Shown here piece by piece: positions 16,394 through 40,810 of a stretch of DNA of 40,810 bases. The stretch covers positions 1 to 40,810 of the IMG/VR virus record IMGVR_UViG_3300009173_003155; one strand, given 5' to 3'. Source of the DNA: a virus. Every line of letters begins with the position of its first letter. The first letter of the stretch is position 1. The notes below the pieces were generated by a model that was given only the letters and a program-made list of their open reading frames with translations, ran no database searches and was not told the origin of the DNA. The translations under genes were made by a program, and so were the position numbers.

Positions 16394-16428
16394 ATACATG
16401 TTGGTGGGGTTACCCCAAGGAGATGAAA

Positions 16429-17838
16429 TTGTCGAATAAAGGAACGAGCGTTGATTTGGCCCCGGTTGTTGCAGGCGCAACAGACGCGGAGGCTCTAGCA
16501 TTTGATCTGGAAACACATCGCGTAAAGATGATGCTTGATGAACCATTCTTCGCAGCGGTCCTTCGTGGTGTTAACTACACCCGAACCCAGGCCATCCCTA
16601 CTGCGGGTGTCCTTGCTAAGGACGGAGAGGTTCACATGTGGTGGAACCCCAAGTTTCTTGCTAGCCTATCCACACTGCAGGTTAAAGGCCTTCTGAAGCA
16701 CGAGGCAATGCACCTCGCCCTTAACCATACAACGGACAGGCGGATGACACCTCACATCATCCACAATTATGCTACGGACCTGGCGATCAACTCTGATATT
16801 CCTAAGGAGGAACTTCCTGAAGGTGGTCTGGTTCCTGGTGAAAAGTTCGCTGACCTTACTGGGGAGCAGACTGCAAACATGGATGCAGAAGCCATTGCAC
16901 GGTATGAAAGAATTTCTGCCAAGATTGCTTCCTTCCCTAAGCGTAAGAGTTCGGAGTGGTACTTCACCAAGCTGATGGAAGACCCTCAGACTCGTAAAGA
17001 TATTGAAGACGGTCAAAGCCCTGGTGGCAAGGGTGGTAAGAGCCTGGCTCAGGCACTTGAAGATGGAGATGTAAAGTTTGATAATGATGGAAACCTTGTT
17101 GACAAAGATGGTAACCCTGTTACTCTTATTCCAGGAGCCATGGACGAGCATGATGGTTGGGACGAGCTTAGCGATTCTGACCGTGAGCTTCTAAAGGGGA
17201 AGATTGCAAAGTCTCTGGGAGATGCAGTCGAGGAATGTGATCGTACAGGACGTTGGGGCTCAGTTTCCTCAGGAATGAGATCTGAACTTCGAGAGCGTAT
17301 TTCTAAGAACATCGATTGGAGAGCAATCCTTCGTAAGTTCTGTGGCCTTTCACGACGAGCCAATCGTTCAAGCAACGTCAGGCGGTTAAACCGAAAGTAT
17401 ACTGGGATTCATCCTGGTGTCGAAAGGGGTTACACCTCAAACATTGCAATCTACATCGACCAGTCTGGCTCAGTGGGTAACAGTGAACTTGAACTGGCCT
17501 TTGCAGAGCTTCGGAACCTGACTAAGCGAACCAGGTTCACAACATTCCACTTTGATACCTCAGTTGATACCGACAGTGAGACTGATTGGCGCAGTGGAAA
17601 GACCCCTAAGGCTAATCGAACTCGTAGTGGTGGTACTTGTTTCACATGTGTGACGGACCATGCTAATAAGAACAGCGCTCGCTTTGATGGTTATGTTATT
17701 ATCACCGATGGAGAAGCTTCTAAGCCCAAGCCTTCCAGACTCAAGCGAGGGTGGTTGCTGGTTCCAGGAACGAAGCTGGTCTTTGATGCTGATAAGCGAG
17801 ACTTCGAGATGCAAATGAAGCCTACAAAAAATAACTAA
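16429..17838 (+). CDS. Putative metallopeptidase with VWA-like domain (DUF2201 type)
   Basis: About 469 aa. I place the start at TTG 16429: AAGGAG (16417-16422) touches the in-frame ATG at 16423, leaving no spacer, but is 6 nt from the TTG. The N-terminal third carries a zinc-protease motif H-E-A-M-H ('LLKHEAMHLALNH', residues about 89-101). A low-complexity linker follows. The C-terminal part is VWA-like: 'NIAIYIDQSGSVGN' (D-x-S-x-S metal site) and 'FDGYVIITDGEA'. In bacteria this family is usually next to a MoxR-type AAA+ ATPase, as here (17957). Together they probably remodel or insert cofactors into a target complex; the target is unknown. Confidence 0.88.
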   Translation: MSNKGTSVDLAPVVAGATDAEALAFDLETHRVKMMLDEPFFAAVLRGVNYTRTQAIPTAGVLAKDGEVHMWWNPKFLASLSTLQVKGLLKHEAMHLALNHTTDRRMTPHIIHNYATDLAINSDIPKEELPEGGLVPGEKFADLTGEQTANMDAEAIARYERISAKIASFPKRKSSEWYFTKLMEDPQTRKDIEDGQSPGGKGGKSLAQALEDGDVKFDNDGNLVDKDGNPVTLIPGAMDEHDGWDELSDSDRELLKGKIAKSLGDAVEECDRTGRWGSVSSGMRSELRERISKNIDWRAILRKFCGLSRRANRSSNVRRLNRKYTGIHPGVERGYTSNIAIYIDQSGSVGNSELELAFAELRNLTKRTRFTTFHFDTSVDTDSETDWRSGKTPKANRTRSGGTCFTCVTDHANKNSARFDGYVIITDGEASKPKPSRLKRGWLLVPGTKLVFDADKRDFEMQMKPTKNN

Positions 17839-17956: not shown

Positions 17957-19042
17957 ATGGATATCAAGACTTTTAAAAACCTAGCTCCCAAGCTTCCCTC
18001 GGAAATTGCAGTTCTCATGAGGGGACCAACGGGTGTAGGAAAGTCTCATCTTGCTAAGCAGTGTGCCGAGGAGATCGGCCTGCCTTTCATTGATGTTCGT
18101 GGCTCTACGATGAGTGAAGGTGATGTTGGTGGTTATCCTGACATTGAGGGGATGAAGACCACTGGAGTCATGACCTTCTGCATGCCTTCCTGGTTCGTAC
18201 GATCATGCCGAGAGCCTGTTGTTCTGATGCTGGATGAGCTTAATCGCTCCCTCCCCGGTGTTCAGCAGAGCTTCTTCCAGCTGGTCCTGGACCGTGAGCT
18301 TGGCAATGACAAGGATGGTAACCCTTACAAGCTTCACCCAGAGACCCGGGTCTTCGCTGCTGTCAACCATGGTAGCGAATATGATGTCAATGACATGGAC
18401 CCCGCCCTCCTCCGTCGCTTCTGGACAGTCGATCTTACTCCGACAAACCAGGATTGGATTGATTGGGCAGGTCCTGCAGGGATTGATTCGGTTACAGTCG
18501 ACTTTATCCGCAATCACCCTGAGCACCTTCGGGTTGACCCTGGGACTGTAGAGCCTGGGTCTATTATCCCGACCCCTGCTTCCTGGCACAGGCTGGATGA
18601 ATCCCTTCGTCACATGGGTATGTCACCAACGGACCTGGCTGGGGTCGGCTCTGATAGCCTCTACTCCCTAAGCACAGGCTTTGTGGGTACCGAAGCTGCC
18701 ATTGCCTACAGCGAGTTCATCAAGCGTTACGAGTCAGTTATCTCGGTGGATGACATCCATTATGGCAAGATTAATAATGACCGAGCAGAAGGTCTTCAGG
18801 CCTCTGAAGCTCTGGGTGTTATCGATAAGCTCGTTGAGCACGCCAAGGATAATAAGTGGAACAAGAAGCAGGCCAAGAACGTTGCCTCATTCATTAAGTG
18901 CCGAGGCGGTGAGCAGTTGGTTTACTTCTGGAATGCACTGAGCAAGACGCAGAACCTCCCCAACATCCAGGCCCTCCACAAGGAGATTGGTGCCAAGGTT
19001 GTTGAGATTGTCCGGGCCACTCGCGCCTTGGGTAACAACTAA
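17957..19042 (+). CDS. MoxR-type AAA+ ATPase
   Basis: 361 aa. Walker A 'RGPTGVGKS' (about 22-30), Walker B 'VVLMLDELNR', sensor 1 'VFAAVNHG', arginine finger region 'DPALLRRF'. MoxR-family ATPases work with VWA proteins as chaperone-like machines that activate protein complexes, and its partner is the gene just upstream, each with its own promoter. The C-terminal 19 residues ('EIGAKVVEIVRATRALGNN') reappear in the 39-aa protein at 19465-19584. Confidence 0.92.
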   Translation: MDIKTFKNLAPKLPSEIAVLMRGPTGVGKSHLAKQCAEEIGLPFIDVRGSTMSEGDVGGYPDIEGMKTTGVMTFCMPSWFVRSCREPVVLMLDELNRSLPGVQQSFFQLVLDRELGNDKDGNPYKLHPETRVFAAVNHGSEYDVNDMDPALLRRFWTVDLTPTNQDWIDWAGPAGIDSVTVDFIRNHPEHLRVDPGTVEPGSIIPTPASWHRLDESLRHMGMSPTDLAGVGSDSLYSLSTGFVGTEAAIAYSEFIKRYESVISVDDIHYGKINNDRAEGLQASEALGVIDKLVEHAKDNKWNKKQAKNVASFIKCRGGEQLVYFWNALSKTQNLPNIQALHKEIGAKVVEIVRATRALGNN

Positions 19043-27423: not shown

Positions 27424-27742
27424 GAAAGAAAAATCAGACTTTTATAAAAAGTTTCCCAAAAAACATGATGGCCTTAAGGCGGGAGACGAAATTATTTTTA
27501 AGAGAATTTCAGATGGAACCATGTCTATAGGCGCTATTAAATTTTTCCACCTCCAGCCGACAGAATGTGTTATTGTAATAGATTTGATGCTTGGCAATTT
27601 TCAAACAGCCATCCTTAAGGATGTTATTAGAGATCCTACTCCAAAACTTCTTAAATCACTTTGGTTAAAGGTTGAAAGAGCGGGCACAAGGCATGGAATT
27701 AGATCTCAAACTCTGAAGAAGAAGAGAACAAAAAAGTCCTGA
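27407..27742 (+). CDS. Basic GD-motif protein (111 aa)
   Basis: Lys-rich N-terminus, then 'GLKAGDEIIFKRISDGTMSIG', the G-D module of the small-protein family, and 'QTAILKDVIRD'. Basic tail 'LKKKRTKKS'. Its last 44 nt overlap the convergent protease gene. May bind nucleic acid; function unknown. Confidence 0.6.
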   Translation: MKKRSKKEKSDFYKKFPKKHDGLKAGDEIIFKRISDGTMSIGAIKFFHLQPTECVIVIDLMLGNFQTAILKDVIRDPTPKLLKSLWLKVERAGTRHGIRSQTLKKKRTKKS

Positions 27743-28502
27743 CATCCATTAGGTCTGTGCCTATTCCCACACTTTCGAAATATCTAAATGCTGTGTGAAT
27801 CATTCCTATAACTTCCCATTTCTCGTTTAATACTGCAGCACCTGAAGAGCCTGGCCGGGTTGGTATAGTATAGAACGCTCTACCATCCTTATTTCCAGAA
27901 TAAAATCCACTAAATACTAAGGCCATATTTTGTCCAGATATGCCATATGGCGCAGCTATCGCGTATACTTTATTTCCCATTTTAGGAATTTCTTTAGCTA
28001 TAGCAATTGGATATGTGAAAACTTTATTTGGTTTCAACAAACACAAATCATTCCCTAGATCTAGTCTAAGGATCTTAGTTGTATATGTTCCCTTTATTGG
28101 TGAGTGTGCCTTTATAACAGTTGATTTAGATATCACGATTCTCACACCCTTATGTTCAATAAACACCGGTGTGTCCTGCCTACAAACATGGGCAGCCGTT
28201 AATATTCCTGGGCCCGCGCTGGACTCTACTAGCAGTCCTGATCCTGACCACCCTGATTCTACTGGTGGCAAGGAACTTAAGAGCTTTTTGCAATCGATAT
28301 TTTTGTCTGTCGTTTGACATGATACTGGCGTCATTTTCTGATTGACCTCAATAAGGACAAACGCATCTACTGGAGCAGTGGACCTTTTTTTTGTAAAAAC
28401 GTATCTTGCGTTTTGGTTTAAAGAAATACAACTTGTTATCACAGCTGCTACGATTATTAAAGTTGATGTTATTATTAGCAGCGTTCTGATTGTATTTTTC
28501 AT
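27699..28502 (-). CDS. Trypsin-like serine protease, putative lipoprotein (267 aa)
   Basis: Reverse strand. A hydrophobic N-terminus leads to lipobox I-T-S-C (Cys25). Catalytic triad visible: His105 in 'ILTAAHVC', Asp152 in 'LGNDLCLL', Ser220 in 'TRPGSSGAAVL'. The chymotrypsin-like fold ends 'EVIGMIHTAFRYF'. Presumably attached to the host envelope from the periplasmic side. Such a protease could process surface proteins or defend against superinfection; that is inference. Only gene of its strand in this area. Confidence 0.85.
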   Translation of the reverse strand: MKNTIRTLLIITSTLIIVAAVITSCISLNQNARYVFTKKRSTAPVDAFVLIEVNQKMTPVSCQTTDKNIDCKKLLSSLPPVESGWSGSGLLVESSAGPGILTAAHVCRQDTPVFIEHKGVRIVISKSTVIKAHSPIKGTYTTKILRLDLGNDLCLLKPNKVFTYPIAIAKEIPKMGNKVYAIAAPYGISGQNMALVFSGFYSGNKDGRAFYTIPTRPGSSGAAVLNEKWEVIGMIHTAFRYFESVGIGTDLMDVRTFLFSSSSEFEI

Positions 28503-28559
28503 AAAAAACCTATACCTTTAATTTTAAATATGCAAATTTTAAAAACTGCGTAAGAGATT

Positions 28560-29000
28560 ATGAAAGAAGAAACTCACGAAAGAATTAAGAGAATAAAGGG
28601 CAATACCTTTTTACCCATGGACGTTTTAGAGATTGATATTATTTATGAAGAATTGCTGGATATTAAATATGATAATAATTTTAACGACTTAGTTAAAACC
28701 AGTTTTTTAGACAAACTAGAGACTACATTACTAACTGGAGACTTGTGGAAATTTAATCCGACGTGCATCGCCCTGTTTGTTAAAGACGGTGCATTTAGAT
28801 ATAATAGACTAATGTTAGAAAAAGACGTATTAGAGAATGGCGAGATTATAAGTCAGGAAGTAGATATCAAAAACAATCTTTACACCCTAATATATCCTAC
28901 GAAGTTTTTGTTGTGTAATGTGTTAAAGCTGGATAATGAATTACTTCTAAAACCTGATTATGCGGTAGTCAATTCAGCCATTGGTGAAATAGAAATATAA
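28560..29000 (+). CDS. Hypothetical protein (146 aa)
   Basis: Divergent from the protease gene. Charged N-terminus, then mostly Leu/Asp/Glu-rich sequence with repeated helix-strand units ('DVLEIDIIYEELLDIKYD', 'IKNNLYTLIYPTKFLLCNVL'). No catalytic motif or signal peptide. The next gene, clpP, starts 16 nt later, so it may be an adaptor or unrelated. Unknown function. Confidence 0.6.
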   Translation: MKEETHERIKRIKGNTFLPMDVLEIDIIYEELLDIKYDNNFNDLVKTSFLDKLETTLLTGDLWKFNPTCIALFVKDGAFRYNRLMLEKDVLENGEIISQEVDIKNNLYTLIYPTKFLLCNVLKLDNELLLKPDYAVVNSAIGEIEI

Positions 29001-29016
29001 TATGAAGGATGAATAA

Positions 29017-29664
29017 TTGAAGAAATATCTTTTGATAAATGAAGAAGAAGCAAATGCAGAGAAAGACGAACATCACCCATCTAGGGATTTTGATACTGAA
29101 ATGACTACTCTTGGGGGTGAGCGGGTCCCTAAGGGTATTGAAGTTGAAGAAAATAGGATATATTTTTATTGCCCTGTTGGTAGTCATGAAGCACTAGAAT
29201 TGAATAGATTGATACGACGTCTAGGTGTGGAAATGAAATATCTTAGTCATAGACTAGAATGTAAGTCTGTACCAATCCACCTCCATATCCATAGTCCTGG
29301 TGGTTCTATCTTTGCAGGTCTATCTATCGTTGATAGTATCAAAGCCTGCAAATCAGAAATACACACATATATTGATGGTTCAGCTGCTTCTGCTGCAACA
29401 TTAATTTCTACAAGCGGAAAGCGGAGGTTTATGAGTAAAAATAGCTTTATGTTACTCCATCAGCCACAGCTTGAGTGGGCTGGAAAGTTGGATGAATTTC
29501 ATGATGAAATAGAAAACCAAAAAAATCTTTATGAGAAGTTGTCCTCTATCTATTTAGAGAATTCAAAAATGACCCAAGAAGCGCTAGACGATTTGTTAAA
29601 GCATGAGTTGTGGTTACCTGCAGAGAAATGTTTAGAACTTGGATTGATTGACAAGATTATTTAA
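29017..29664 (+). CDS. clpP: ClpP-like protease subunit
   Basis: 215 aa, about the normal length, with an acidic N-terminal extension of about 40 residues. TTG start. Triad: Ser125 in 'DGSAASAATLI', His148 in 'MLLHQPQ', and probably Asp192 by alignment ('LDDLLKHELWLPAEK'). The glycine-rich 'HSPGGSIFAGLSIVDSI' matches ClpP. No ClpX/ClpA is seen in the window, so it may recruit the host ATPase or act in virion processing as phage ClpP-like enzymes do. Confidence 0.9.
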   Translation: MKKYLLINEEEANAEKDEHHPSRDFDTEMTTLGGERVPKGIEVEENRIYFYCPVGSHEALELNRLIRRLGVEMKYLSHRLECKSVPIHLHIHSPGGSIFAGLSIVDSIKACKSEIHTYIDGSAASAATLISTSGKRRFMSKNSFMLLHQPQLEWAGKLDEFHDEIENQKNLYEKLSSIYLENSKMTQEALDDLLKHELWLPAEKCLELGLIDKII

Positions 29665-29665
29665 A

Positions 29666-31291
29666 ATGATTGATAAAAATAAATGGGTACAGTATTTTCC
29701 ATATGCAGAGCCAAGAGATGAACAAGTTACTTCAATAAATTATACGATTGATTCATTTTTAAAAAATAAGAAGAAAGTAGTAATTCTTGAAGCTGGAACC
29801 GGTGTAGGAAAGTCTGCGGTTGGATTAACAGTCGCCAAATATTTAAACGCCAATACACCTCATGATGAAAATTTTGAAAAAGGTGCCTACTTTTTAACAA
29901 CACAAAAGATCCTGCAAGAACAATATGTAAAAGATTTTGGCACCCCTGGGGAAATGAAGTCCATTAAATCATCTTCTAATTATACATGCAACTTTCATAA
30001 AAAGAATTCGTGCTCAGAAAGCCAGCAGGCTCTAAGGACCGAACAAAAGGGCTCACAATTTTGGAAAAGTTGTGTCTTTGATTGCAAGTATAAAAAAGCC
30101 AAAGAAGCATTCATTAAATCACCAGAAAGTATTACAAATTTTTCGTACTTTTTAGCAGAGACACAGTATTCTGGAAAACTTAAACCCAGGGAGACTTTGA
30201 TTATTGATGAAGCACATAACATCCCGGTTGAATTAAGCAAATTTGTAGAAATAGCAATAACACAAAGGTTCACAAAGCAGACACTAAAATTAAACGTCCC
30301 AGTCTTGCACTCACAACATCAGGCATTTTCTTGGATTAAAAACACGTATGCTCCGAAACTTAAGTCATACTGTAGTCATGTCAAAAGTATGTTAGAAAAA
30401 TATACAGGACTAAGGGATAAATTAGCTGAATTTGCAAATATGGCTAAACAATATGATATGTTAGATAAACATTCATGCAAAATAAATAGATTTTTAGAAA
30501 TCTATGAAAAGGATAATTGGGTTTTTAATTCTGTAAAGCCAGAGGGTAGGAAGAGCGCGAGATTGGAGTTCAAGCCAATTGATGTTTCACATTATGCAGA
30601 GGATCTATTATTTAGGATGGGAAAAAGAATCATTATGATGTCTGCGACTATTCTGAATGCAGCAGGATTATGTGAGCTACTAGGTCTTGATATCCAGAAT
30701 GTAGATGCAATCTCAATTCCGTCTCCGTTTCCAGTCAAAAATAGACCTATACTTTTTGTGCCGATGGGCAAAATGACATCTAAAGAGATTGATAAATCGC
30801 TACCAAAACTCATGACTGCAATAGAGAAAATACTTGAAGTCCATAAAGATGAAAAGGGCATCATTCATACACACAGTTATAAAATTGCAAATCATATTAA
30901 ACGAAATGTTAAGTCAAAAAGACTACTAATTCCAAGTTCAGATAATAGAGATGAATTTTTAAAAAAGCATTTTGACAGTAAGGAGCCAACGGTACTTGTA
31001 AGCCCTTCTATGACTGAGGGTGTGAGTCTTGAGGGGGATGTTAGTAGATTTCAAATTTTGTGTAAAGTGCCATACCCGTACCTGGGTGACCAATTGGTAA
31101 AGAAAAGGATGAACAAGTGGAGATGGTGGTACCCATTTCAAACGATTAAAACAATCGTACAATCCGTGGGTAGATCTGTAAGATCAAAAGATGATGTGGC
31201 CGTTACATATATTTTGGATGCTGACTGGGAAAGGTTTTTTGACAAAAATAAAAATGTTTTTCCAAATGATTTTAGAAAATGCTTAAAGTAA
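29666..31291 (+). CDS. XPD/DinG-type Fe-S superfamily-2 DNA helicase
   Basis: 541 aa; I use the ATG at 29666, not the in-frame TTG at 29648 that lies inside clpP. Walker A 'LEAGTGVGKSAV' (41-52), DEAH box 'IIDEAHN' (179-185), and the late 'VQSVGRSVRSKDDVAV' motif VI with its arginines. Four cysteines at 108, 116, 136 and 140 lie between motifs Ia and II, as in the 4Fe-4S domain of XPD/DinG. Such enzymes unwind 5'-to-3' and resolve D- or R-loops. Probably acts in phage DNA replication or repair. Confidence 0.92.
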   Translation: MIDKNKWVQYFPYAEPRDEQVTSINYTIDSFLKNKKKVVILEAGTGVGKSAVGLTVAKYLNANTPHDENFEKGAYFLTTQKILQEQYVKDFGTPGEMKSIKSSSNYTCNFHKKNSCSESQQALRTEQKGSQFWKSCVFDCKYKKAKEAFIKSPESITNFSYFLAETQYSGKLKPRETLIIDEAHNIPVELSKFVEIAITQRFTKQTLKLNVPVLHSQHQAFSWIKNTYAPKLKSYCSHVKSMLEKYTGLRDKLAEFANMAKQYDMLDKHSCKINRFLEIYEKDNWVFNSVKPEGRKSARLEFKPIDVSHYAEDLLFRMGKRIIMMSATILNAAGLCELLGLDIQNVDAISIPSPFPVKNRPILFVPMGKMTSKEIDKSLPKLMTAIEKILEVHKDEKGIIHTHSYKIANHIKRNVKSKRLLIPSSDNRDEFLKKHFDSKEPTVLVSPSMTEGVSLEGDVSRFQILCKVPYPYLGDQLVKKRMNKWRWWYPFQTIKTIVQSVGRSVRSKDDVAVTYILDADWERFFDKNKNVFPNDFRKCLK

Positions 31292-31322
31292 ATGGCTATT
31301 TATTATAGAGATAAATTTTACT

Positions 31323-31751
31323 ATGGCTATCAAGATAAGCAAAAAAAAGAAAAAAAATAGAGCTGACCAAAGGGCCGGTGTTATTATTCTTAAAAAATTT
31401 GGAAAAGAATATAAAGTCTTATGCCTTAAAATATTCGGAAGTTATGATTTTCCCAAAGGCGGGGTTGAGCCATTTGAGAATGTTTTTGCTGCTGCTATGA
31501 GAGAGGCTGAAGAGGAATCTGGAATAACGGATTTAGATTTTGAATGGGGACTTGCTACAACAAAAGTAAGAAACGTAACATTATTTATAGCCTCTACAAC
31601 CCAAAGGCCAGTTATCAAGCCTAATCCTGAGACTGGAGAGTTCGAACATCACGCCGCCCACTGGAAAGACTTTGATGATGCAGAAAAATCTCTGCACCCA
31701 TATTTAAGGCCAACTATTTCATGGGTCAGACAAGTTATAGGAGAAAAATAA
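31323..31751 (+). CDS. Nudix hydrolase (142 aa)
   Basis: Basic N-terminus (K-rich), then 'AGVIILKKFGKEYKVLCL' and a Nudix box G-x5-E-x7-R-E-A-x-E-E-x-G-I at 'GGVEPFENVFAAAM' and 'REAEEESGI'. Nudix enzymes hydrolyse nucleoside diphosphates linked to another group, with Mg2+. The substrate could be a modified nucleotide, NAD-like compound, Ap4A or a capped RNA; not decidable here. The following gene begins immediately. Confidence 0.9.
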   Translation: MAIKISKKKKKNRADQRAGVIILKKFGKEYKVLCLKIFGSYDFPKGGVEPFENVFAAAMREAEEESGITDLDFEWGLATTKVRNVTLFIASTTQRPVIKPNPETGEFEHHAAHWKDFDDAEKSLHPYLRPTISWVRQVIGEK

Positions 31752-32594
31752 ATGTCGACGTTTACAGAACACAAGACGGTGGCAGACAGGTCTGCCTCCG
31801 ATAGGCGACGCCACAAACAAAAGATTGAAAAGGCTATTAAAGAAGGTATTCATGATATTGTTGCAGAAGAATCTATAATTGGGCAAGACGGCAAAAAGAA
31901 GATAAAAATTCCAGTCAGGGGAATCAAAGAATATCGTTTTGTATATGGCAACAATGAAAATAATAAGAAGGTTGGAACCGCACCAGGAAAGGATATCCAA
32001 AGAGGGCAAAAGATTGGAGAAGGAAAAGAACAAAAAGGGAAAGACATTGGCTCAAAGCCTGGCACGGAAGCGGGCAATGAATATTACGAAGTAGAAATTT
32101 CCCTTGACGAATTGGCTGATTACCTTTTTAGCGACTTAAACCTTCCAGATCTAGAGAGAAAGGCATTAAAGAAAATAATGTCAGAAAAAATAAAGAGAAA
32201 AGGATATAGAAAAGAGGGAATAAAACCTAGGCTAGATAAGAAAAAATCAGCAATAGAAAGAATTAAAAGAAAAAAGGCAGCAGAGAGATCTGGCCCAACG
32301 GAGGAAGAGGCATTTCCATTCCACGACAATGATTTGGTATATAGGCATTATAAAAAATCAAAAAAAGAATGCTCAAATGCAGTGATATTTTTTGTAATGG
32401 ATGTTTCTGGATCTATGACAACAACCAAAAAATTCCTCGCAAGAAGTTTTTACTTTCTTCTTTATCACTTTATTAGATCAAAATATGAACAAACGGAAAT
32501 AATATTCATTTCGCATGACACAGTAGCCAATGAAGTTAATGAAGAGGCATTTTTTGCAAGAGGAAATAGCGGTGGGACTATCGTCTCTAGCTGA
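31752..32594 (+). CDS. DUF444 (YeaH/YhbH) protein, N-terminal part up to an in-frame TGA
   Basis: 280 aa before TGA (32592-32594). N-terminal 'VADRSASDRRRHKQKIEKAI' and 'RGIKEYRF' are typical for YeaH/YhbH; the VWA domain holds 'FVMDVSGSMTTTKK' (D217, S219, S221) and 'GGTIVSS'. The frame continues without a shift for a further 345 nt with intact family sequence, so the TGA interrupts a complete 395-aa gene between the second and third metal-site motifs. TGA-C is a known leaky context. Starts on the base after the Nudix stop. Genetically coupled to PrkA in many bacteria. Confidence 0.85.
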   Translation: MSTFTEHKTVADRSASDRRRHKQKIEKAIKEGIHDIVAEESIIGQDGKKKIKIPVRGIKEYRFVYGNNENNKKVGTAPGKDIQRGQKIGEGKEQKGKDIGSKPGTEAGNEYYEVEISLDELADYLFSDLNLPDLERKALKKIMSEKIKRKGYRKEGIKPRLDKKKSAIERIKRKKAAERSGPTEEEAFPFHDNDLVYRHYKKSKKECSNAVIFFVMDVSGSMTTTKKFLARSFYFLLYHFIRSKYEQTEIIFISHDTVANEVNEEAFFARGNSGGTIVSS

Positions 32595-32603
32595 CTGGAA
32601 TTA

Positions 32604-32939
32604 GTGTGTGATATTATAGAAAAAAGATTTCACCCAAATAGCTGGAACATTTATTGCTTCCAATGTTCAGATGGAGACAACTGGCCAGATGATACAGATA
32701 AAACACTCACTGCAGCAGAAAAAATTAAAGATTATTCTCAATTATTTGGCTATTGTGAAATAGTACCCAAGGATGCTCCTGGAGGGTGGTTCGAAGAACT
32801 AAGGCTTTCTAAGGTTTATGAAAAAATTACAGATAAAAAATTAAAAACCGCAGAAATAACAGGCAAAGAAGGAATATGGGATGCATTCAAAAGCTTTTTT
32901 AGTGTGAAGGGAAAGAAAAGAATTATCGTTTCAAAATAA
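32604..32939 (+). CDS. DUF444 (YeaH/YhbH) protein, C-terminal part after the TGA
   Basis: Same frame as the preceding part. The sequence after TGA reads L-E-L-V-C-D-I-I-E-K-R-F, then 'NSWNIYCFQCSDGDNWPDD', where S-D-G-D is the last VWA metal motif. A GTG at 32604 could be a restart but has no good ribosome site. It ends 'KGKKRIIVSK'. Readthrough, a real nonsense mutation or a sequencing error would all give this picture; the intact downstream half argues against long-standing decay. Confidence 0.75.
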   Translation: MCDIIEKRFHPNSWNIYCFQCSDGDNWPDDTDKTLTAAEKIKDYSQLFGYCEIVPKDAPGGWFEELRLSKVYEKITDKKLKTAEITGKEGIWDAFKSFFSVKGKKRIIVSK

Positions 32940-32948
32940 GGATTAACA

Positions 32949-34253
32949 ATGAACGGATATAATTTTGATGACTTAAAAAAATGGGATGATAAAATATGCG
33001 AGCTGGCCGTAAAGAAGGGTCTTAGCTGGTTTCCAATAACTTATGAAGTTGTAGACTATTATACTATGATAGGGCACATGGCATACCATGGGATGCCGAC
33101 GCACTACGGCCATTGGTCATATGGCAAATCATTCGAAAGAACACACCAGATGTATAACATGGGTATGGAGGGGCTGCCTTATGAACTAATCATTAATAGT
33201 AATCCATCTATCGCTTATCTTATGAGAGAGAACCCACTTTATTTGCAGGTTCTTATTATGGCACATTGTGTCGGGCATTCTGATTTCTTTAAGAATAATA
33301 GGATGTTTAAAAATACTAGGCCTGATTCTGTTATCGCAAGAATGCGTAACGCAAAAAAAAGAATTCAAGAATATACAGAAGATCCTACAATCGGCATAGA
33401 GTTAGTAGAAGAAGCATTAGACGCTGCACAATCTGTTTCATTTCAGACATATCGTTATGGGCAACGTCGTCAGTCAGAAGAAGAATTAAAACAGAAATAT
33501 ACGAAAAAAATTAAAGATGATGAGGATGGAGAGTATATAGACTTTGATATAATGAAAAAGCCTCTAGAACCAGATTATGATATTCTTGGATTTATAGCCG
33601 AAAATGGTAACCTCCCAGAGTGGAAAAAAGATATCATTGAGATTGTAAGAGAAGAGGCAAAATATTTCATGCCACAAATGCAAACGAAGATTATGAATGA
33701 AGGTTGGGCATCTATGATGCATTACACATTCTGTCATGAATTAGATCTTTCTGCAGGAATGCACCTACCATTTCTTAAAAGTCATAACCAAGTCATCAGG
33801 CCCCACATAGGGGGGTTAAACCCTTATCATATGGGTTTTACAATCTTTAAAAGTATAGAAGAAAAATACGGGTTTGATGAATGTTTAGTCGCTAGAGAAA
33901 CTGCACATGATATTTCTTTTATTCGCCAGTATCTAACGAGAGAACTTTGCGAAGATCTAGGTCTTTTCTCATTTTCAGAAAAAAGAAAAAGTGGAATAAC
34001 AATTGATGAAATTTATGATGATGATGGATGGAAAATTGTAAAACAGGATTTGATTAGTAATATTGGAACAAACACGGTACCTATTATCTACGTAGATGAA
34101 ATGGAATTAGGACAACTAGTTTTAAGACACGAACATGATGGGCGGGATCTAGAATTAGATTATGCAGATGCCGTCATTCAGCATGTTAATGTGTTGTGGC
34201 CAGACGGAGCAAAATTATTTACGATTCTTGAGGAAGAATTGTGGGAAATATAG
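32949..34253 (+). CDS. spoVR: SpoVR-family protein (YcgB type)
   Basis: 434 aa. Typical segments: 'WFPITYEVVDYYTMIGHMAY', 'HYGHWSYGKSFERTHQMYNM', 'NSNPSIAYLMREN', 'MNEGWASMMHYTFCHEL' and 'NPYHMGFTIFKSIEEKYG'. SpoVR is a soluble protein linked with sporulation in Bacillus and with the YeaG/YeaH stress kinase in Gram-negative bacteria; its biochemistry is poorly known. A cytoplasmic partner of PrkA is the likely role. AAGGATTAACA precedes the ATG. No truncation seen. Confidence 0.95.
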   Translation: MNGYNFDDLKKWDDKICELAVKKGLSWFPITYEVVDYYTMIGHMAYHGMPTHYGHWSYGKSFERTHQMYNMGMEGLPYELIINSNPSIAYLMRENPLYLQVLIMAHCVGHSDFFKNNRMFKNTRPDSVIARMRNAKKRIQEYTEDPTIGIELVEEALDAAQSVSFQTYRYGQRRQSEEELKQKYTKKIKDDEDGEYIDFDIMKKPLEPDYDILGFIAENGNLPEWKKDIIEIVREEAKYFMPQMQTKIMNEGWASMMHYTFCHELDLSAGMHLPFLKSHNQVIRPHIGGLNPYHMGFTIFKSIEEKYGFDECLVARETAHDISFIRQYLTRELCEDLGLFSFSEKRKSGITIDEIYDDDGWKIVKQDLISNIGTNTVPIIYVDEMELGQLVLRHEHDGRDLELDYADAVIQHVNVLWPDGAKLFTILEEELWEI

Positions 34254-34306
34254 CTATTTATAATTGATAGCTATTACAAAACTTAATTTAAGGATATAAT
34301 AATATT

Positions 34307-36241
34307 ATGACTGTTAAAAATAAATTGCTTAAAGAAATAGAGAAGCAAAGAAAGAAAAGTAAGTCTAAAAAGAAGTTTAAGGGAAACTTTTTAGATTACG
34401 TCGATCTCGTGCAGGCTAATCCAGATATCGTTAAAAGTTCTCATGAAAGACTTTTCGGTGCGATTATCAAGCATGGCGTTAATAATATGCCAGATGCGGA
34501 TATCAGAAAAAGAAAGATCTTTGATGGAGATAACATAAAACTATATGATTATTTTAAAAAAGAGTTCTTTGGAATGGAAAGGGTCATCGGAAAAATTATG
34601 AGTTTCCTTAAAGCAGCTGCTTATAAAGGTGAAGAAAGCAAGCAGGTACTTTTATTAATGGGACCAGTTGGTGCAGGTAAAAGTGCATTAACAGAGCACA
34701 TAAAAAGATCCTTACATGATGAATCATGCTTCCACCTTAAAAATGATCCCCAAAGAGGAGAGCCCCTTCAGTTAGTACCAAGAAGCCTTCGAGAAACATT
34801 CGAAAAAGAACTTAATGTAAAGATAGAGGGAGATATTAGTCCAATAGTTAGGCATCATTTGTTAACAGAGTTGGATGGAAAGTACGAAGATTATGAAGTT
34901 GTTCAATCTTCTTTTTCCCAAAGGGGTAGAAGAGGAATATCGTCAGTCCCGCCAATGGATGCAAATAGTCAAGACGTTTCTGTTTTAATTGGAAGTGTAG
35001 ACATATCAAAGCTTGATCGTTACGCAGAGGATGACCCACGTGCATTATCATTAAATGGCGCATTTAATGTAGGGAATAGAGGAATTGTCGAACTTGTAGA
35101 AGTTTTTAAAAATGAAATTGAATTTTTGCATACAATTATTACGGCGACTCAAGAAAAAAGAGTTCCATCCCCTGGTAAAAGCGATATGTTACACTTTGAT
35201 GGTGTAATCCTTGCCCATTGTAACGAAGCAGAGTGGAATAGGTTCCAGAGTGAACATACAAATGAAGCAATCCTTGATAGGGTCGTGAAAGTTAACGTCC
35301 CATATGTCTTAGAACTAGATCAAGAAATTAAAATTTATGAAAAAATGCTTGGACAATCTAATTTTAAGCATCACATTGCGCCTCATACAATTAAGGTAGC
35401 CGCAATGTTCAGCATCCTTTCGAGGCTACAGTCTTCACAAAAGTGTGATCTTCTTACTAAAATGAAAATTTATAATGGTGATGAGGTAATTGAAAAGGGA
35501 CGAGTCAAAAGAGTTGATATCAAAGACTTAAGAGAAGAAACTAGAAATGAAGGAATGTCTGGTATTTCTACAAGGTTTATTGCAAAAGCGTTAGACGATG
35601 CATTGACAAATTCTGATAAAGAAATTGTTACACCTGTCTCTGTTATCGAGTCGCTTATAAATAAAGTTAAAGAACAAATCATCGATGAAGAATTTAAGCA
35701 AACATGCCTGGAAATAATTCAAAAAGTCGTAAGAGAAGAATACCTCAAAATTCTGGAGACAGAGATTGCAAAAGCATTTGTTAGCGCATATGAGGAGCAG
35801 GCACAGTCATTATTTGACACCTACCTTGATAATTCAGAAGCGTCTACAACTAGGCAAAAGCTTAGAGATAAAGTAACGAAAGAAGATAGGGAACCGGATG
35901 AGAATTTTATGAGATCTATAGAAGAACAGATCGGCATCACGGGATCATCAAAAGAAGGGTTTAGAAGTGATGTTACTGCGTATATGTTCGCTAAACTAAG
36001 AAAAGGTGAGACTGTAGATTATAGATCATATGAACCTCTTAAAGAAGCGATTGAGGGATATCTTATCAATTCTGTAAAAGATATGGCTAGAATCGTAACA
36101 AAATCTAAAACACGCGATGATGAACAACAACAAAAACATAGCGATATGATTGAAACAATGATCAATGAATATGGTTATAACGCAGATAGTGCAGAAGAAA
36201 TTCTTGCATATGCATCTAATAATCTTTGGAGAGATAGCTAG
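34307..36241 (+). CDS. prkA: PrkA (YeaG)-family AAA+ serine kinase
   Basis: 644 aa, normal for the family. Walker A 'LLLMGPVGAGKSALTE' (117-130); 'SFSQRGRRGISSVPPMDANS' and 'ALSLNGAFNVGNRGIVELVE' are PrkA hallmarks; 'FDGVILAHCNEAEW' is the sensor region; the C-terminal kinase-like half is kept. In bacteria PrkA works in stress, sporulation and nutrient shift, with DUF444 and SpoVR, all of which are here in order DUF444-SpoVR-PrkA. AAGGATATAATAATATT gives a moderate ribosome site. Confidence 0.95.
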   Translation: MTVKNKLLKEIEKQRKKSKSKKKFKGNFLDYVDLVQANPDIVKSSHERLFGAIIKHGVNNMPDADIRKRKIFDGDNIKLYDYFKKEFFGMERVIGKIMSFLKAAAYKGEESKQVLLLMGPVGAGKSALTEHIKRSLHDESCFHLKNDPQRGEPLQLVPRSLRETFEKELNVKIEGDISPIVRHHLLTELDGKYEDYEVVQSSFSQRGRRGISSVPPMDANSQDVSVLIGSVDISKLDRYAEDDPRALSLNGAFNVGNRGIVELVEVFKNEIEFLHTIITATQEKRVPSPGKSDMLHFDGVILAHCNEAEWNRFQSEHTNEAILDRVVKVNVPYVLELDQEIKIYEKMLGQSNFKHHIAPHTIKVAAMFSILSRLQSSQKCDLLTKMKIYNGDEVIEKGRVKRVDIKDLREETRNEGMSGISTRFIAKALDDALTNSDKEIVTPVSVIESLINKVKEQIIDEEFKQTCLEIIQKVVREEYLKILETEIAKAFVSAYEEQAQSLFDTYLDNSEASTTRQKLRDKVTKEDREPDENFMRSIEEQIGITGSSKEGFRSDVTAYMFAKLRKGETVDYRSYEPLKEAIEGYLINSVKDMARIVTKSKTRDDEQQQKHSDMIETMINEYGYNADSAEEILAYASNNLWRDS

Positions 36242-36243
36242 AA

Positions 36244-36540
36244 ATGAAATTAAATATTGATGTGGGCCATCCAGAAGCACTCTTACTTTGTGGAACGTAC
36301 CTTATGATAAACAACTATTTTGGATTTGGTTTAGCACTTTTGATTTTTGGATTTTTGGGCGGAATTTTTAGAACTGGTCTTAGAATTCAAGAAGCCCAAC
36401 AAAAACAAGAAGAAAAAGAAAAAACGTTTAAGGAATTTAGTAATGCAGGCGAAGACCTTGCGCAGGCAGTTATCCAACTCCTCAGCGCATTCGGAAACAA
36501 AGAAAAAAGCAAAAAGAACCAAGACGGCAGTTTCCACTAA
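36244..36540 (+). CDS. Small membrane protein with acidic/basic tail (98 aa)
   Basis: Starts 2 nt after the PrkA stop. A hydrophobic stretch ('LLLCGTYLMINNYFGFGLAL' then 'LIFGFLGGIF') gives one or two membrane helices, then a Gln/Glu/Lys-rich helix. Its end overlaps the start of the following gene by 98 nt. Its location suggests a membrane anchor for the PrkA module, unproven. Confidence 0.6.
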   Translation: MKLNIDVGHPEALLLCGTYLMINNYFGFGLALLIFGFLGGIFRTGLRIQEAQQKQEEKEKTFKEFSNAGEDLAQAVIQLLSAFGNKEKSKKNQDGSFH

Positions 36541-37732
36541 CCAAACAAACCACCCTTATACCGAACTCGCTCTTGAAGATTTAATTAAGCAAAAATATAA
36601 CTTGTTGCTTAAAGAGTTAAGTACATTTCTTGTAAGGTTGTGTAGTGGTAGATTAGTCTTTAATTTTGGGAATAATGTTGTTAACTCAGTTCCTGCAGAC
36701 TTAGTCAGATCCCTTTCAGAATGGTCACAGGACGACTTTGTAGACTTAGCAATAAGGAACATCATTGTAGACGCCATAGTGTCTTCAGAGAATAAGCAAG
36801 TGGGTTCTGGGGTCATCTGTGCGTTGGCGTTGCTTAGCAACAAAAAATTTGATTCAGATATCAAAAAATATAGAAATAGAGCAGAGCTGCATGACTTAGA
36901 TAAAACCATCGATTACTTTTTAGGAAGTGGGAATTTATCTAAGGTTACAAAACAATCAATAGGGTTGGGTTCGTTAAATGGAAGTCTAAGATTTGATATT
37001 TCAAATAATAAAGATTTCTTAATCTCGGCTGAACCAGCCATAAAAATTAAGGGATTTGTTCATCCCATGTTTGATCTTAATAAACGGTGGATGGAGTCTG
37101 TTACACTAGTATGCGTAGACGGAGTAATCGAGTCCCTGGGAGAAATAGATTCAATTCTTCAGGGGTCTTCTGTACACAAAAATAATGTTATCATACTTGC
37201 AACAAATTATCATCCTGATATTATTAATACATTAAATGTTAACTTTAAAGATAACAGGTTGAATGTTATTCCCTTCGTTGTTGAAGGCTGGGGTGAAACT
37301 CCAGGAACTGATGCCTTAGAGGCTTGTACTAATATTGGTATAGATTGTGTGTCTAGAGAGCGAGGAGATGTTTTAGCAGCAAAAACTCTGGATGATTTTT
37401 CTATTGTAAAGTCCACATACATTTCTGCCAACAGTATTGCTATTCATAATGATGGTGGGAATGAAATTCACACAATGATTAAAGTCCCAAATACGGTCAA
37501 GCCAATGGCTGGTTTAATAGAAGACAGGGTTCGTATTACGTTACAATCATGCAAGGGTATAGCCAGGTGGGGTTTAATTAAAGATCATGATATTTTAAAT
37601 GTGTCACATTTGGATGGACTTAGGAAGCCTATGGTTCCAGTAAGCGCCCTTTATTTTGGAATTCAAACAGCCGAAAGGTGCAAGGAAAACATCAATAATT
37701 TGGGTGCTATTATTATACCCGACATAAAATAA
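36443..37732 (+). CDS. Divergent chaperonin (GroEL)-like protein (429 aa)
   Basis: I choose ATG 36443 because AAGGAATTTAGTA precedes it; a longer frame to 36347 and a shorter start are possible. Residues 200-315 look like the GroEL apical domain: 'IKGFVHPMFDLNKRWMESV', 'TLVCVDGVIESLGEIDSIL', 'NNVIILATNYHPDIINTLNV', 'GWGETPGTDALEACTNIGID'. The end 'PVSALYFGIQTAERCKENI' matches the last equatorial helix. The GroEL GDGTTT loop is replaced by 'VGSGVICALAL' (120-130), losing the catalytic Asp87. The C-terminal equatorial part is shorter. So an inactive or altered chaperonin is likely. A remote match judged by eye. Confidence 0.6.
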   Translation: MQAKTLRRQLSNSSAHSETKKKAKRTKTAVSTNQTNHPYTELALEDLIKQKYNLLLKELSTFLVRLCSGRLVFNFGNNVVNSVPADLVRSLSEWSQDDFVDLAIRNIIVDAIVSSENKQVGSGVICALALLSNKKFDSDIKKYRNRAELHDLDKTIDYFLGSGNLSKVTKQSIGLGSLNGSLRFDISNNKDFLISAEPAIKIKGFVHPMFDLNKRWMESVTLVCVDGVIESLGEIDSILQGSSVHKNNVIILATNYHPDIINTLNVNFKDNRLNVIPFVVEGWGETPGTDALEACTNIGIDCVSRERGDVLAAKTLDDFSIVKSTYISANSIAIHNDGGNEIHTMIKVPNTVKPMAGLIEDRVRITLQSCKGIARWGLIKDHDILNVSHLDGLRKPMVPVSALYFGIQTAERCKENINNLGAIIIPDIK

Positions 37733-37781
37733 TTTACATTTTTTTAAAAAAATGAATAATTAAATCATATGGAGAGACATA

Positions 37782-37997
37782 ATGACAAATTCAAACAAAA
37801 TCTGTAGGACAGTTTTAGACACACAAAGTGTCGTTAAAGATCAATTAAATAATATTCTTATTTCTGAGTTATTGTCTAGTGGGACAATCAATGAAGTTAC
37901 TTACAAAAATTTGACAGCGCAACTAGCATCGTGCATAGACAAACAAACAGACGCATTAGTTGATAGAATTTTAAATGAGTTTAGAAGTAACAAATAA
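37782..37997 (+). CDS. Hypothetical helical protein (71 aa)
   Basis: GGAGAGACATA precedes the ATG. Helical, polar, no motif. Overlaps the next gene by 23 nt. No family recognised. Confidence 0.6.
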   Translation: MTNSNKICRTVLDTQSVVKDQLNNILISELLSSGTINEVTYKNLTAQLASCIDKQTDALVDRILNEFRSNK

Positions 37998-38466
37998 TCC
38001 CACGAGTGGTGTCAAGCATTTAATTCAATGCCATTGTATACTACCTCAATACAGAAATTCAAAAAATCCCGTATTTCATAAATTTGTTGTATTTTCTATA
38101 ATCGATAATGAGACAGATTTAGTATTACCAAAATTTGCTGAATGCAATAATTGTGGTACTGCACATAAGATAGTTGATATGTGTACATCAGAAATTCTAG
38201 TGGGCAAAGATGAAGTAAGAACTCAATTAACAATAAGCGATCTACAACATTCATTGCCTACATCATTATTTGAATTACTGGTTTCATACAATAAAGACCT
38301 ACCAGACTTTGAATATGCTCAGTTCATTATAGAGAATGAACGGTGGAATAAACATATTATCCTAACAAGGGAAGAATTGGAAGATTACACCCAGGGAAAA
38401 TTGGTTAAATTTATTGCTATAGACAAATTTAAAGTAGAATCATATACATCAAAAAGATCAGTTTAA
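37975..38466 (+). CDS. Zinc-binding hypothetical protein (163 aa)
   Basis: Two metal-site candidates: 'CHCILPQY' (19-26) and 'ECNNCGTAH' (about 56-64), a C-x-C plus C-x-x-C zinc site. Then 'MCTSEIL' and a helical end with 'ERWNKHIILTREELEDY'. I have the impression that such proteins are frequent in marine phages but cannot verify that here. Stop overlaps the next ATG (TAATG). Confidence 0.7.
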   Translation: MSLEVTNNPTSGVKHLIQCHCILPQYRNSKNPVFHKFVVFSIIDNETDLVLPKFAECNNCGTAHKIVDMCTSEILVGKDEVRTQLTISDLQHSLPTSLFELLVSYNKDLPDFEYAQFIIENERWNKHIILTREELEDYTQGKLVKFIAIDKFKVESYTSKRSV

Positions 38467-38705
38467 TGAAGAATACAAAAAAATATGGGACATCAACCCC
38501 AGAAGAGGCATCAATTTTGGACTCTGCAAAATGTAGGGAAATTATTAATGAAATATTCAATTTTGGTATAAGCCAACCTCAAATAATCACGCTAATCAAA
38601 TTGCTTTCTTTAGAATTAGAAAATAGAGATTTAATGTTAAAATTTTTAAACGTAATTGAGAATAAAGAAGATCAAATTATTGATAAGCCGATAATAACCA
38701 TTTAA
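38466..38705 (+). CDS. Hypothetical helical protein (79 aa)
   Basis: TAATG-coupled to the zinc-binding protein. Amphipathic: 'CREIINEIFNFGISQPQIIT', 'LIKLLSLELENRDLMLKFL'. The pair probably acts together. No family recognised. Confidence 0.65.
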   Translation: MKNTKKYGTSTPEEASILDSAKCREIINEIFNFGISQPQIITLIKLLSLELENRDLMLKFLNVIENKEDQIIDKPIITI

Positions 38706-38718
38706 AAAGGAGAATGTT

Positions 38719-38910
38719 ATGTCAACAACAACAGATCAGTGGAACGAAATTAAAGTATTAGTAGAGTCATTAGAGTTAGATGTAGTAAAGAATGCAAGCG
38801 GGAACGCTTCTGCTGGAGTTAGAGCAAGAAGGGGACTAAGACTCTTAAAAGCAAAAGCCGGGGACTTAATTAAGATGAGTATTACTACTGATAAAGGCCG
38901 CAAGAGTTAG
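38719..38910 (+). CDS. Histone-H1-like (Hc1-type) small basic protein (63 aa)
   Basis: AAAAGGAGAATGTT precedes the ATG. 'WNEIKVLVESLELDVVKNAS' then 'GNASAGVRARRGLRLLKAKA' resembles the N-terminal helix pair of chlamydial Hc1-like nucleoid proteins (pattern G-N-x-x-A-x-x-R-x-R). Basic, alanine/arginine-rich. Such proteins compact DNA. Family match judged by eye; a generic DNA-binding protein is the alternative. Confidence 0.7.
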   Translation: MSTTTDQWNEIKVLVESLELDVVKNASGNASAGVRARRGLRLLKAKAGDLIKMSITTDKGRKS

Positions 38911-38992
38911 TAATCATTTCATGATATACATGTAAAGATCATTCTGCACCTTTGTTTATAGGTTCCATATTTATTTGTATGGGAGTTTTATT

Positions 38993-40087
38993 ATGAATAA
39001 AGAAATTAAACAAAAAGATGACCTTTATATAAACAAAGATGTGCCCACATCAGAATCAGATGATGAATTTGATTTTGTTGGTGCATATGATGATACCGAT
39101 GAAAGCGTTGACGAACAGGCACTACCAGAAAATACAGCCGACTCTGCAATCAACTGCGCATTCATTGGGGTTGGTGGCGGTGGTGGCAAGTTAGCCAAAG
39201 CATTTTTAGATGCAGGGTTCAACAAGACATTTCTGGTTAACACAACAGTTAAAGATCAACCGGATGGTGTACCTGCAGATCATTTCCTTTTAATCCCCGG
39301 GGCCGATGGTGTAGGAAAAGATGTAAATCTTGGAAAGAAAATTCTTGAAGAAAATAGTGCGCTTGTTGAAGACGCGGTTAGATCAAGATTAGTTAATCCA
39401 GACTGGATTTTTGTACTTGCTGGTGGGGGTGGTGGAACAGGGTCAGCATGTTCTGTGTTACATGATTCGCTTACAAGACATCTTACGACTGTAGGTGCAT
39501 CTGGTAAGGTTGTTTATATAGTATCAAAACCATCCGCCCAAGAACTATTAAATTCTACAATTGAAAAAAACTATAATTCAATTTTAGAGGATGTCTCAAG
39601 TCATCCCCATATCATTATAGACAATGAAAGACAGTTACAACTACTTAGAAATAAAGTAGGTATGCTAAATCTATATCCTGTCGCAAATAAGAATTTTGCA
39701 AAGTTGCTTGCACAAGTTTTAAAGCTGGCTGCAACTCATTCAGACATACAGGCATTTGATACCAAGGACTTAGAGAAATGTCTTAGCACAAATGGAAGAA
39801 TAATAATAGGTAGCACCGTCATTAAAGATACTGAACGACGCGATCTTGGAGCTGCAATTCTTCAAGGGTGCATTAAATCTTCACCGTGTCCGGCACCCAA
39901 AAATAGATGTTCAACTGGTGCATTGATGTTAATAGCAACGTCTTTAATGGCAAGTGATCCTGCTATTAGTAAAAATCTAGAAGCAACGTTTAGTTATGTT
40001 GGGGGAAGAACTGACACACTATTTTCTGGAATGTATATAAGGGAAAAAATTCCTGGATTGATAGCCCTTTGTCTTCTAGCCGGATGA
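38993..40087 (+). CDS. Tubulin/FtsZ-superfamily GTPase (364 aa)
   Basis: Start at ATG 38993 with GGGAG upstream; an in-frame ATG at 38975 lies before that site. About 53 acidic residues precede the GTPase domain. '[20 protein letters not shown]' is the first nucleotide loop; '[13 protein letters not shown]' (142-154) the tubulin signature GGGTGS; '[20 protein letters not shown]' matches the T7 synergy-loop region with its aspartates kept, so polymerisation is possible. Phage relatives (PhuZ, TubZ) centre phage DNA or segregate plasmids. The acidic extension is odd for that family. Confidence 0.88.
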
Positions 40088-40351
40088 TGGATCATGGGGT
40101 TCGAAATTACCTGGATTTTTTCGAAGTTTCTTTAAGATCATTTTTTCAATTTGACAAATTCTCATTCGAGAAACCCCATAATAATCACCTATCTCCTGGA
40201 GGGTTTTTGGTCCTTCATTCGCAACAATTATTGAACAATTTAGTCCCTGATCAGACTTTAAAAAGTGCCTACAGGCACTTTCTGAACAGGGCTTTTGCGT
40301 GCGCTTTATTTTTTTATAACATTTTTCTTGTTTGTTTTTTATATCATTCAT
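40076..40351 (-). CDS. Small sigma-70 region-4-like protein (91 aa)
   Basis: Reverse strand; ATG at 40351, with an in-frame TTG at 40357. '[20 protein letters not shown]' and '[10 protein letters not shown]' form the helix-turn-helix that reads the -35 element in sigma factors. No region 2 is seen, so it is not a full sigma factor. It could be a phage transcription co-activator that redirects host polymerase. It overlaps the GTPase end by 12 nt. A link with the non-standard -35 of the repeated promoter is an attractive idea, not proven. Confidence 0.8.
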
Positions 40352-40409
40352 ATTCAAATACGTTTTGTGGATACTATAAAACTAATACAAGATAAAGGAT
40401 TTTACAACT

Positions 40410-40810
40410 GTGGGAAAAAGAAAATTACTTATAATAGACACGTCTGTATTACTATATGACAAAAATTCAATTCATTCATTTCCTGGAAATGATGTAGTAT
40501 TGCCCCTAATAGTTTTAGATGAACTTGATAGGTTCAAAGAAAAGCCCGGTTTATTAGGAGAATCTGCAAGATATGTGAACAGGTACTTAGACAATCTTAG
40601 ATCTATTGGACGCTTAGACAAAGGTGTTTTGTTAAATGATGAAAGTGATCAAACAATCACCGTAACATGTTTACCTGCAAAACTAGATTCTGATGAACTA
40701 GATATCAGCACTGGTGATAATATGATTATCGCAGCTGCACTAAATTTAAAAAATAAAAATAAAAATAAAATAATAAAAGTTGTAACAAAGGATATCAATT
40801 TAAGGGTTAA
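40410..40810 (+). CDS. PhoH-like protein, N-terminal PIN domain (cut by window end)
   Basis: GTG start behind AAAGGA. 133 codons to the window edge, all open. PIN domain: 'LLIIDTSVLLYD' (first catalytic Asp), 'PLIVLDELDRFK', 'GESARYVNRYLD', 'STGDNMIIAAAL' and 'KVVTKDINLRV' with further acidic residues. In PhoH2-type proteins this PIN ribonuclease precedes the PhoH ATPase, which would be downstream of the window. Common in marine phages. Confidence 0.85.
   Translation, partial: MGKRKLLIIDTSVLLYDKNSIHSFPGNDVVLPLIVLDELDRFKEKPGLLGESARYVNRYLDNLRSIGRLDKGVLLNDESDQTITVTCLPAKLDSDELDISTGDNMIIAAALNLKNKNKNKIIKVVTKDINLRV

Follow-up and report, generated by a model that had tools for sequence, protein, structure and literature searches.

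A conserved DUF444-SpoVR-PrkA cassette with a linked small membrane protein in a lineage of large T4-like phages

Why would a virus carry the genes for DUF444, SpoVR and PrkA, a trio that is widespread in bacteria and tied to starvation, and whose biochemical role is still unsettled? The question is raised by a 40,810-base IMG/VR virus record (hereafter the window, meaning the whole stretch of DNA analysed). An earlier note, made from its sequence alone, described a complete triad in a phage-like context and proposed that a phage might use it to hold the host in, or release it from, a dormant or starved state.

Composition of the Cassette

The three genes lie where the earlier note placed them, in the order DUF444-SpoVR-PrkA, on one strand and with strong Pfam matches, and a small membrane protein gene follows them, as had also been noticed:

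31752-32939, + strand: DUF444 (YeaH/YhbH-type VWA protein); PF04285 in two pieces, E = 5e-81 and 2e-24
32949-34253, + strand: SpoVR family protein; PF04293, E = 6e-116
34307-36241, + strand: PrkA (YeaG-type AAA+ protein with the PrkA C-terminal domain); PF08298, E = 2e-133, and PF06798, E = 9e-78
36244-36540, + strand: small membrane protein of 98 residues, the fourth cassette gene; hydrophobic hairpin

The gap between DUF444 and SpoVR is 9 bases, and that between SpoVR and PrkA is 53 bases. Both PrkA models scored over their cut-offs, showing that the AAA domain and the C-terminal domain are present; Pfam assigned the former to AAA_PrkA, not to MoxR, and the match to RavA was weak (E = 6e-4). 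The residues expected at the active sites are invariant in phage and bacterial copies alike: the DUF444 MIDAS residues D217, S219, S221, T276 and D307 (151 phage and 70 bacterial copies), H106, H110 and E251 of SpoVR (all 155 phage and 60 bacterial copies), and the Walker A K125/S126 together with R325 of PrkA.

For PrkA, a relative with a solved structure is available (9xip). SpoVR yielded a confident AlphaFold2 model (pLDDT 93) that matched no fold in the PDB, and a sequence search found no relative of it with a solved structure; the only significant entry in a viral structure library has 617 residues, the length of SpoVR of phage phiLo. A PADLOC search returned only weak generic AAA matches, and scans for promoters, terminators and late promoters gave no more matches than expected by chance. 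A possible second SpoVR near 40298-40483 (- strand) was rejected, since it scored 15.7 bits, under the cut-off, and overlaps the beginning of a PhoH-like gene in antisense.

All three genes of the triad are present, but the word "complete" in the earlier note needs correction for the window itself, where an in-frame TGA at 32592-32594 splits the DUF444 reading frame. A sibling contig with an intact DUF444 gene is 99.94% identical to the window over 28307-40810 (12.5 kb), and among the genes checked the TGA codon is the sole amino-acid-changing difference between them. The intact sibling protein matched TIGR02877 (YhbH) with E = 6e-122, below the cut-off of that model. DUF444 is full-length in 151 of 155 copies, the exceptions being the window's own, a single shortened one (L085) and two truncated where their contigs end; no other copy in the alignment of 155 has a stop at the TGA site. 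By this comparison, the TGA is either a private nonsense mutation or an assembly error. Recoding of TGA was considered and rejected, because a sense codon stands at this position in the near-identical sibling and in every other copy of the alignment.

Neighbouring and Other Genes

The window also holds the following genes, some of which adjoin the cassette and served as reference points in the comparisons below:

29017-29664: ClpP; conserved neighbour in other relatives
29648-31291, + strand: DinG-type helicase, conserved upstream neighbour; phrog_2488 DNA helicase, E = 1e-114
31323-31751, + strand: NUDIX hydrolase directly upstream of DUF444; PF00293, E = 9e-12
38975-40087, + strand: tubulin/FtsZ-like GTPase, conserved downstream neighbour; TIGR00065, E = 2e-11 (below cut-off), and phrog_4733 PhuZ, E = 4e-4
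1370-1810: small heat-shock-like protein
1938-3818: DnaK, full length

The NUDIX gene ends one base before the start of DUF444. It is a conserved neighbour in the sub-lineage of the window and lies outside the cassette, since it is retained in a related locus from which the cassette is absent (L390, see below). The tubulin/FtsZ-like GTPase is 64-79% identical in relatives; it is divergent, with a weak match to the PhuZ profile, and strongly conserved in the lineage, 263 relatives having been matched in viral contigs.

Several other genes were observed in the window. A second AAA+/VWA pair consists of a VWA protein with a DUF2201 metallopeptidase domain (16423-17838) and a MoxR-type ATPase (17957-19042), and is kept in a 267-kb relative, contig G004. 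A conserved protein encoded downstream of the cassette (36557-37732) has a weak GroEL-like match (E = 0.006, below cut-off), and G004 carries a separate GroEL-like gene. The start of a PIN/PhoH-like gene at 40419-40808, cut by the contig end, is 66% identical to the G004 copy. Two further genes are unusual phage cargo: one (11290-12201, + strand) encodes a protein that resembles lipoproteins and bears a DxSxS motif of the VWA type, the other (27699-28502, - strand) a trypsin-like serine protease whose start resembles that of a lipoprotein.

Phage Nature of the Sequence

No terminase, portal or capsid genes were identified in the window itself. Nevertheless, the phage-like context claimed for it was borne out: the window is an IMG/VR record and is collinear with G004 across DinG, NUDIX, DUF444, SpoVR, PrkA and the tubulin-like gene. 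G004 encodes a tail sheath, portal, terminase, baseplate wedge, UvsX, DnaB and DNA polymerase III alpha. The T4-like hallmark set (terminase, portal, sheath, baseplate and UvsX) was thus found in relatives, to which the window is linked by collinearity only. Of 30 triad-bearing contigs searched, 20 gave a terminase hit at E <= 0.001, 19 of these passing the curated cut-off; every contig longer than 130 kb had such a hit. Since collinear relatives encode terminase, portal, sheath and replication proteins, the possibility raised in the earlier note that the window is a fragment of a bacterial chromosome does not hold.

The terminase of G004 is 42-44% identical to those of Flavobacterium phage immuto and Microcystis phage Mel-JY01, which points to a deep, T4-like, uncultured lineage. 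The one close "bacterial" PrkA, with 74% identity and assigned to a "Methylococcaceae" metagenome-assembled genome (MAG), was considered as evidence of a bacterial donor and rejected: the contig carrying it is a collinear 306-kb phage sequence with terminase, portal and sheath genes. This contig (NHDW01000006.1; loci L186 and L267-L282) had been binned in the Methylococcaceae TMED69 MAG. A marine setting of the lineage is only suggested by the TMED title of this MAG and by the Pelagibacter phage and cyanophage kin recovered in the terminase search.

Conservation and All-or-None Inheritance

A search of viral contigs for the triad, one of the checks proposed in the earlier note, found it in more than 100 of them. 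The scans revealed at least 184 PrkA and 123 SpoVR relatives, and about 155 loci were fetched, some being overlapping views of one contig. Wherever all three genes are visible in these loci, the order DUF444-SpoVR-PrkA is constant, with gaps mostly of -8 to +9 bases between DUF444 and SpoVR and of +1 to +67 bases between SpoVR and PrkA. More than 100 copies of the cassette are intact, and the median dN/dS values of 0.033 for PrkA, 0.045 for SpoVR and 0.028 for DUF444 place the cassette under strong purifying selection.

Its inheritance was assessed using the neighbouring DinG helicase as an anchor, which avoids selecting loci by the triad itself. For both the DinG and the tubulin searches, single-sequence queries gave few loci, while alignment queries succeeded. 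Counting the 75 DinG-anchored loci with sufficient downstream sequence, all three genes were present in 55 and none was found nearby in the other 20. In L390, DinG, NUDIX and the post-cassette genes are kept and all four cassette genes are absent. In at least one contig scored as lacking the genes at DinG (G007), the triad is located elsewhere. All eight DinG-anchored contigs longer than 200 kb contain PrkA. The module may therefore be nearly core in the lineage, with fragmentary contigs precluding a firm figure. A prevalence estimate anchored on the terminase was dropped in favour of DinG; it was uninformative because the fragments stop short of the triad locus.

The Fourth Gene

A profile HMM of the small membrane protein detected it in 41 of 57 triad-positive and in 0 of 20 triad-negative DinG-anchored loci (Fisher p = 5e-9, a value that overstates independence, as the contigs are related). 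The protein is a genuine fourth member of the cassette. It gave no match in Pfam, PHROGs, PADLOC or NCBIfam, and the profile did not detect it in many divergent triad loci, so that it is either restricted to a sub-lineage or has diverged there past detection. AlphaFold2 predicted helices at residues 9-22 and 26-87 (mean pLDDT 80), forming a putative helical hairpin in which a short helix and a turn are followed by a long C-terminal helix and a disordered tail. The last residue is conserved: in 48 homologues it is His in 35 and Asn in seven (42 of 48 together), and the tail of the window's protein ends in -FH. As a background, 8 of 266 open frames in G004 end in His.

Origin of the Cassette

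On the PrkA tree, 14 phage copies of the window's lineage form one clade with support of 100/100, adjoining PrkA of Clostridium, Bacteroidota and Pseudomonadota types; SpoVR and DUF444 of this lineage likewise form one group each. The phage copies are not nested within a single bacterial species, a result that the earlier note had named as a refutation of its idea, and judging from these trees the cassette has a single origin within the window's lineage. The earlier note had asked whether phage copies form a clade; they do within this lineage, but not across phages in general. Thermus phages grouped with Sulfobacillus, three huge phages of the LR series with YeaG, and one more with planctomycete-type PrkA. 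A single clade of all phage PrkA was rejected (AU p = 7e-46), as was a clade uniting the window's lineage with the Thermus phages (AU p = 1.7e-5), both values being subject to a long-branch caveat. On this topology, Thermus phages and the 600-kb huge phages acquired the module separately.

The bacterial triad (yeaG-yeaH-ycgB or prkA-yhbH-spoVR) likewise comprises adjacent genes from these three families and shares their invariant residues, while the window's lineage differs in its DUF444-SpoVR-PrkA order and in the additional membrane protein gene. The order in the nearest bacterial relatives is PrkA-DUF444-SpoVR, and 61 loci examined were PrkA-first; gene order is, however, a typical rather than a strictly defining character of the triad. 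The phage order is also seen in thermophilic Bacillota, in Sulfobacillus and in Thermus phages, all of which are placed in other parts of the PrkA tree. Unless a closer donor has been overlooked, the permutation has therefore probably happened repeatedly.

Among isolated phages, Thermus phages TMA, phiLo and MN1 carry DUF444, SpoVR and PrkA in the same order as the window, and in phiYS40 and Lalka PrkA and DUF444 were seen. PrkA of the Thermus phages forms a clade apart from the window's lineage, and TMA, unlike the window, has an additional gene between SpoVR and PrkA. The annotation of another isolate, Ralstonia jumbo phage RsoM2USA (PMC8504454), includes SpoVR and PrkA; this phage was absent among the matched records of the collection searched. 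The uncultured phages LR745206, LR756502, LR756504 and LR756511 (595-642 kb) have all three genes, as does the window, but with YeaG-type (three) or planctomycete-type (one) PrkA and with the genes in bacterial order or split. YeaG/YeaH in Enterobacter phage LAU1 was rejected as phage cargo, because the genes lie at the record end and are probably host flank. In viromes of marine oxygen-minimum zones, spoVR was the most abundant sporulation-related gene and was read as inducing sporulation (PMC8940887); that study names spoVR and not prkA, and the triad, the phage lineage and the fourth gene are undescribed there.

The presence of the trio in deposited Thermus phages, of SpoVR and PrkA in RsoM2USA, and of spoVR in marine viromes is thus already known. 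What is new is that one lineage of large phages keeps the trio as a conserved unit, present whole or not at all, that this unit arose once in the window's lineage and separately in other phages, and that a membrane protein with a conserved C-terminal residue is linked to it; no description of these points was found in a literature search that covered few subscription papers or preprints.

Possible Function

When E. coli is starved of nitrogen, YeaG and YeaH jointly bring its metabolism into a quiescent state, acting as a "metabolic brake" (PMC10954441), and a role of the trio in host dormancy during phage infection, as proposed in the earlier note, would plausibly fit this phenotype. PrkA of Bacillus anthracis is an AAA+ protein with undetectable kinase or protease activity, the lack of kinase activity being attributed to a missing kinase P-loop (PMC13001217). 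The NorQ/NorD and RavA/ViaA systems resemble the cassette in having an AAA+ ATPase gene beside that of a VWA protein with an intact MIDAS, and remodelling by NorQ/NorD drives metal insertion (PMC13036017); the cassette differs in that Pfam does not call PrkA a MoxR ATPase.

By analogy, PrkA may act as an ATP-driven AAA+ ring, with DUF444 as its VWA/MIDAS adaptor, the two together remodelling or loading SpoVR as a client. The invariant HxxxH and Glu site of SpoVR looks like a metal centre, which is a motif-based guess, since the SpoVR model matches no solved fold; the binding of RNA by B. subtilis SpoVR in vivo (PMC12456014) points elsewhere. The phage-specific hairpin protein might tether such a complex to the inner membrane or aim it at it, and its effect would be to brake the metabolism of the host, which would suit a phage whose large genome is copied slowly in a starved cell. 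That the cassette is such a functional, host-derived brake, captured once by an ancestor of these large T4-like phages and kept as a unit, is the reading we prefer, and we consider it quite possible, if somewhat short of probable. A bolder version would have unrelated large phages capturing the triad at least three to four times as a dedicated device that first imposes metabolic quiescence on starved hosts and then lifts it. The window's lineage would have made of it a machine of four genes, nearly core to these phages, in which the phage-specific protein serves as membrane tether and its C-terminal His/Asn tail signals where the complex of PrkA, DUF444 and SpoVR should dock. This extended scenario is speculative and, taken as a whole, unlikely.

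The cassette could instead belong to a stress-protection or chaperone kit that keeps host or phage proteins working through a long infection and is no dormancy switch. The window and G004 do carry DnaK, a small heat-shock protein, ClpP and the MoxR-type ATPase with its VWA metallopeptidase, G004 has GroEL in addition, and tolerance of osmotic stress is impaired in B. anthracis PrkA mutants (PMC13001217); since the trio is co-inherited as its own unit, separately from the chaperone genes, we regard this explanation as possible but on the unlikely side. It is improbable that the cassette times phage-specific cell-envelope or lysis events, a scheme in which SpoVR would act on the envelope or on cortex-like peptidoglycan, partnered in the membrane by the hairpin protein. 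Such a role would agree with the part of SpoVR in spore cortex formation in B. subtilis and Myxococcus xanthus (cited in PMC12456014) and with the linkage of a membrane protein to the cassette, but neither a domain nor a fold of a peptidoglycan enzyme can be recognised in SpoVR, and the triad occurs in many bacteria without a cortex.

That the contig is bacterial, or that the triad is a passing pick-up of host genes without a function in the phage, is scarcely credible and already contradicted by the data. The window's lack of capsid and terminase genes, the stop codon in its DUF444 and the relative in a "Methylococcaceae" MAG could be read in this way; they are countered by the terminases in 20 of the 30 triad contigs, including every one above 130 kb, by the phage nature of the 306-kb MAG contig with its collinear terminase, portal and sheath genes, and by dN/dS values of about 0.03-0.045 across more than 100 intact copies.

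"Sporulation" is probably a misleading label for the trio, since the family is also widespread in non-spore-forming bacteria. The compact phage version, long kept under strong selection together with a linked fourth protein, offers a natural minimal set for dissecting the machine. Its retention suggests that slowing or managing a starved host is part of the way of life of these phages, and that phages of slow or starved hosts may bring their own module of physiological control, beyond the usual metabolic genes.
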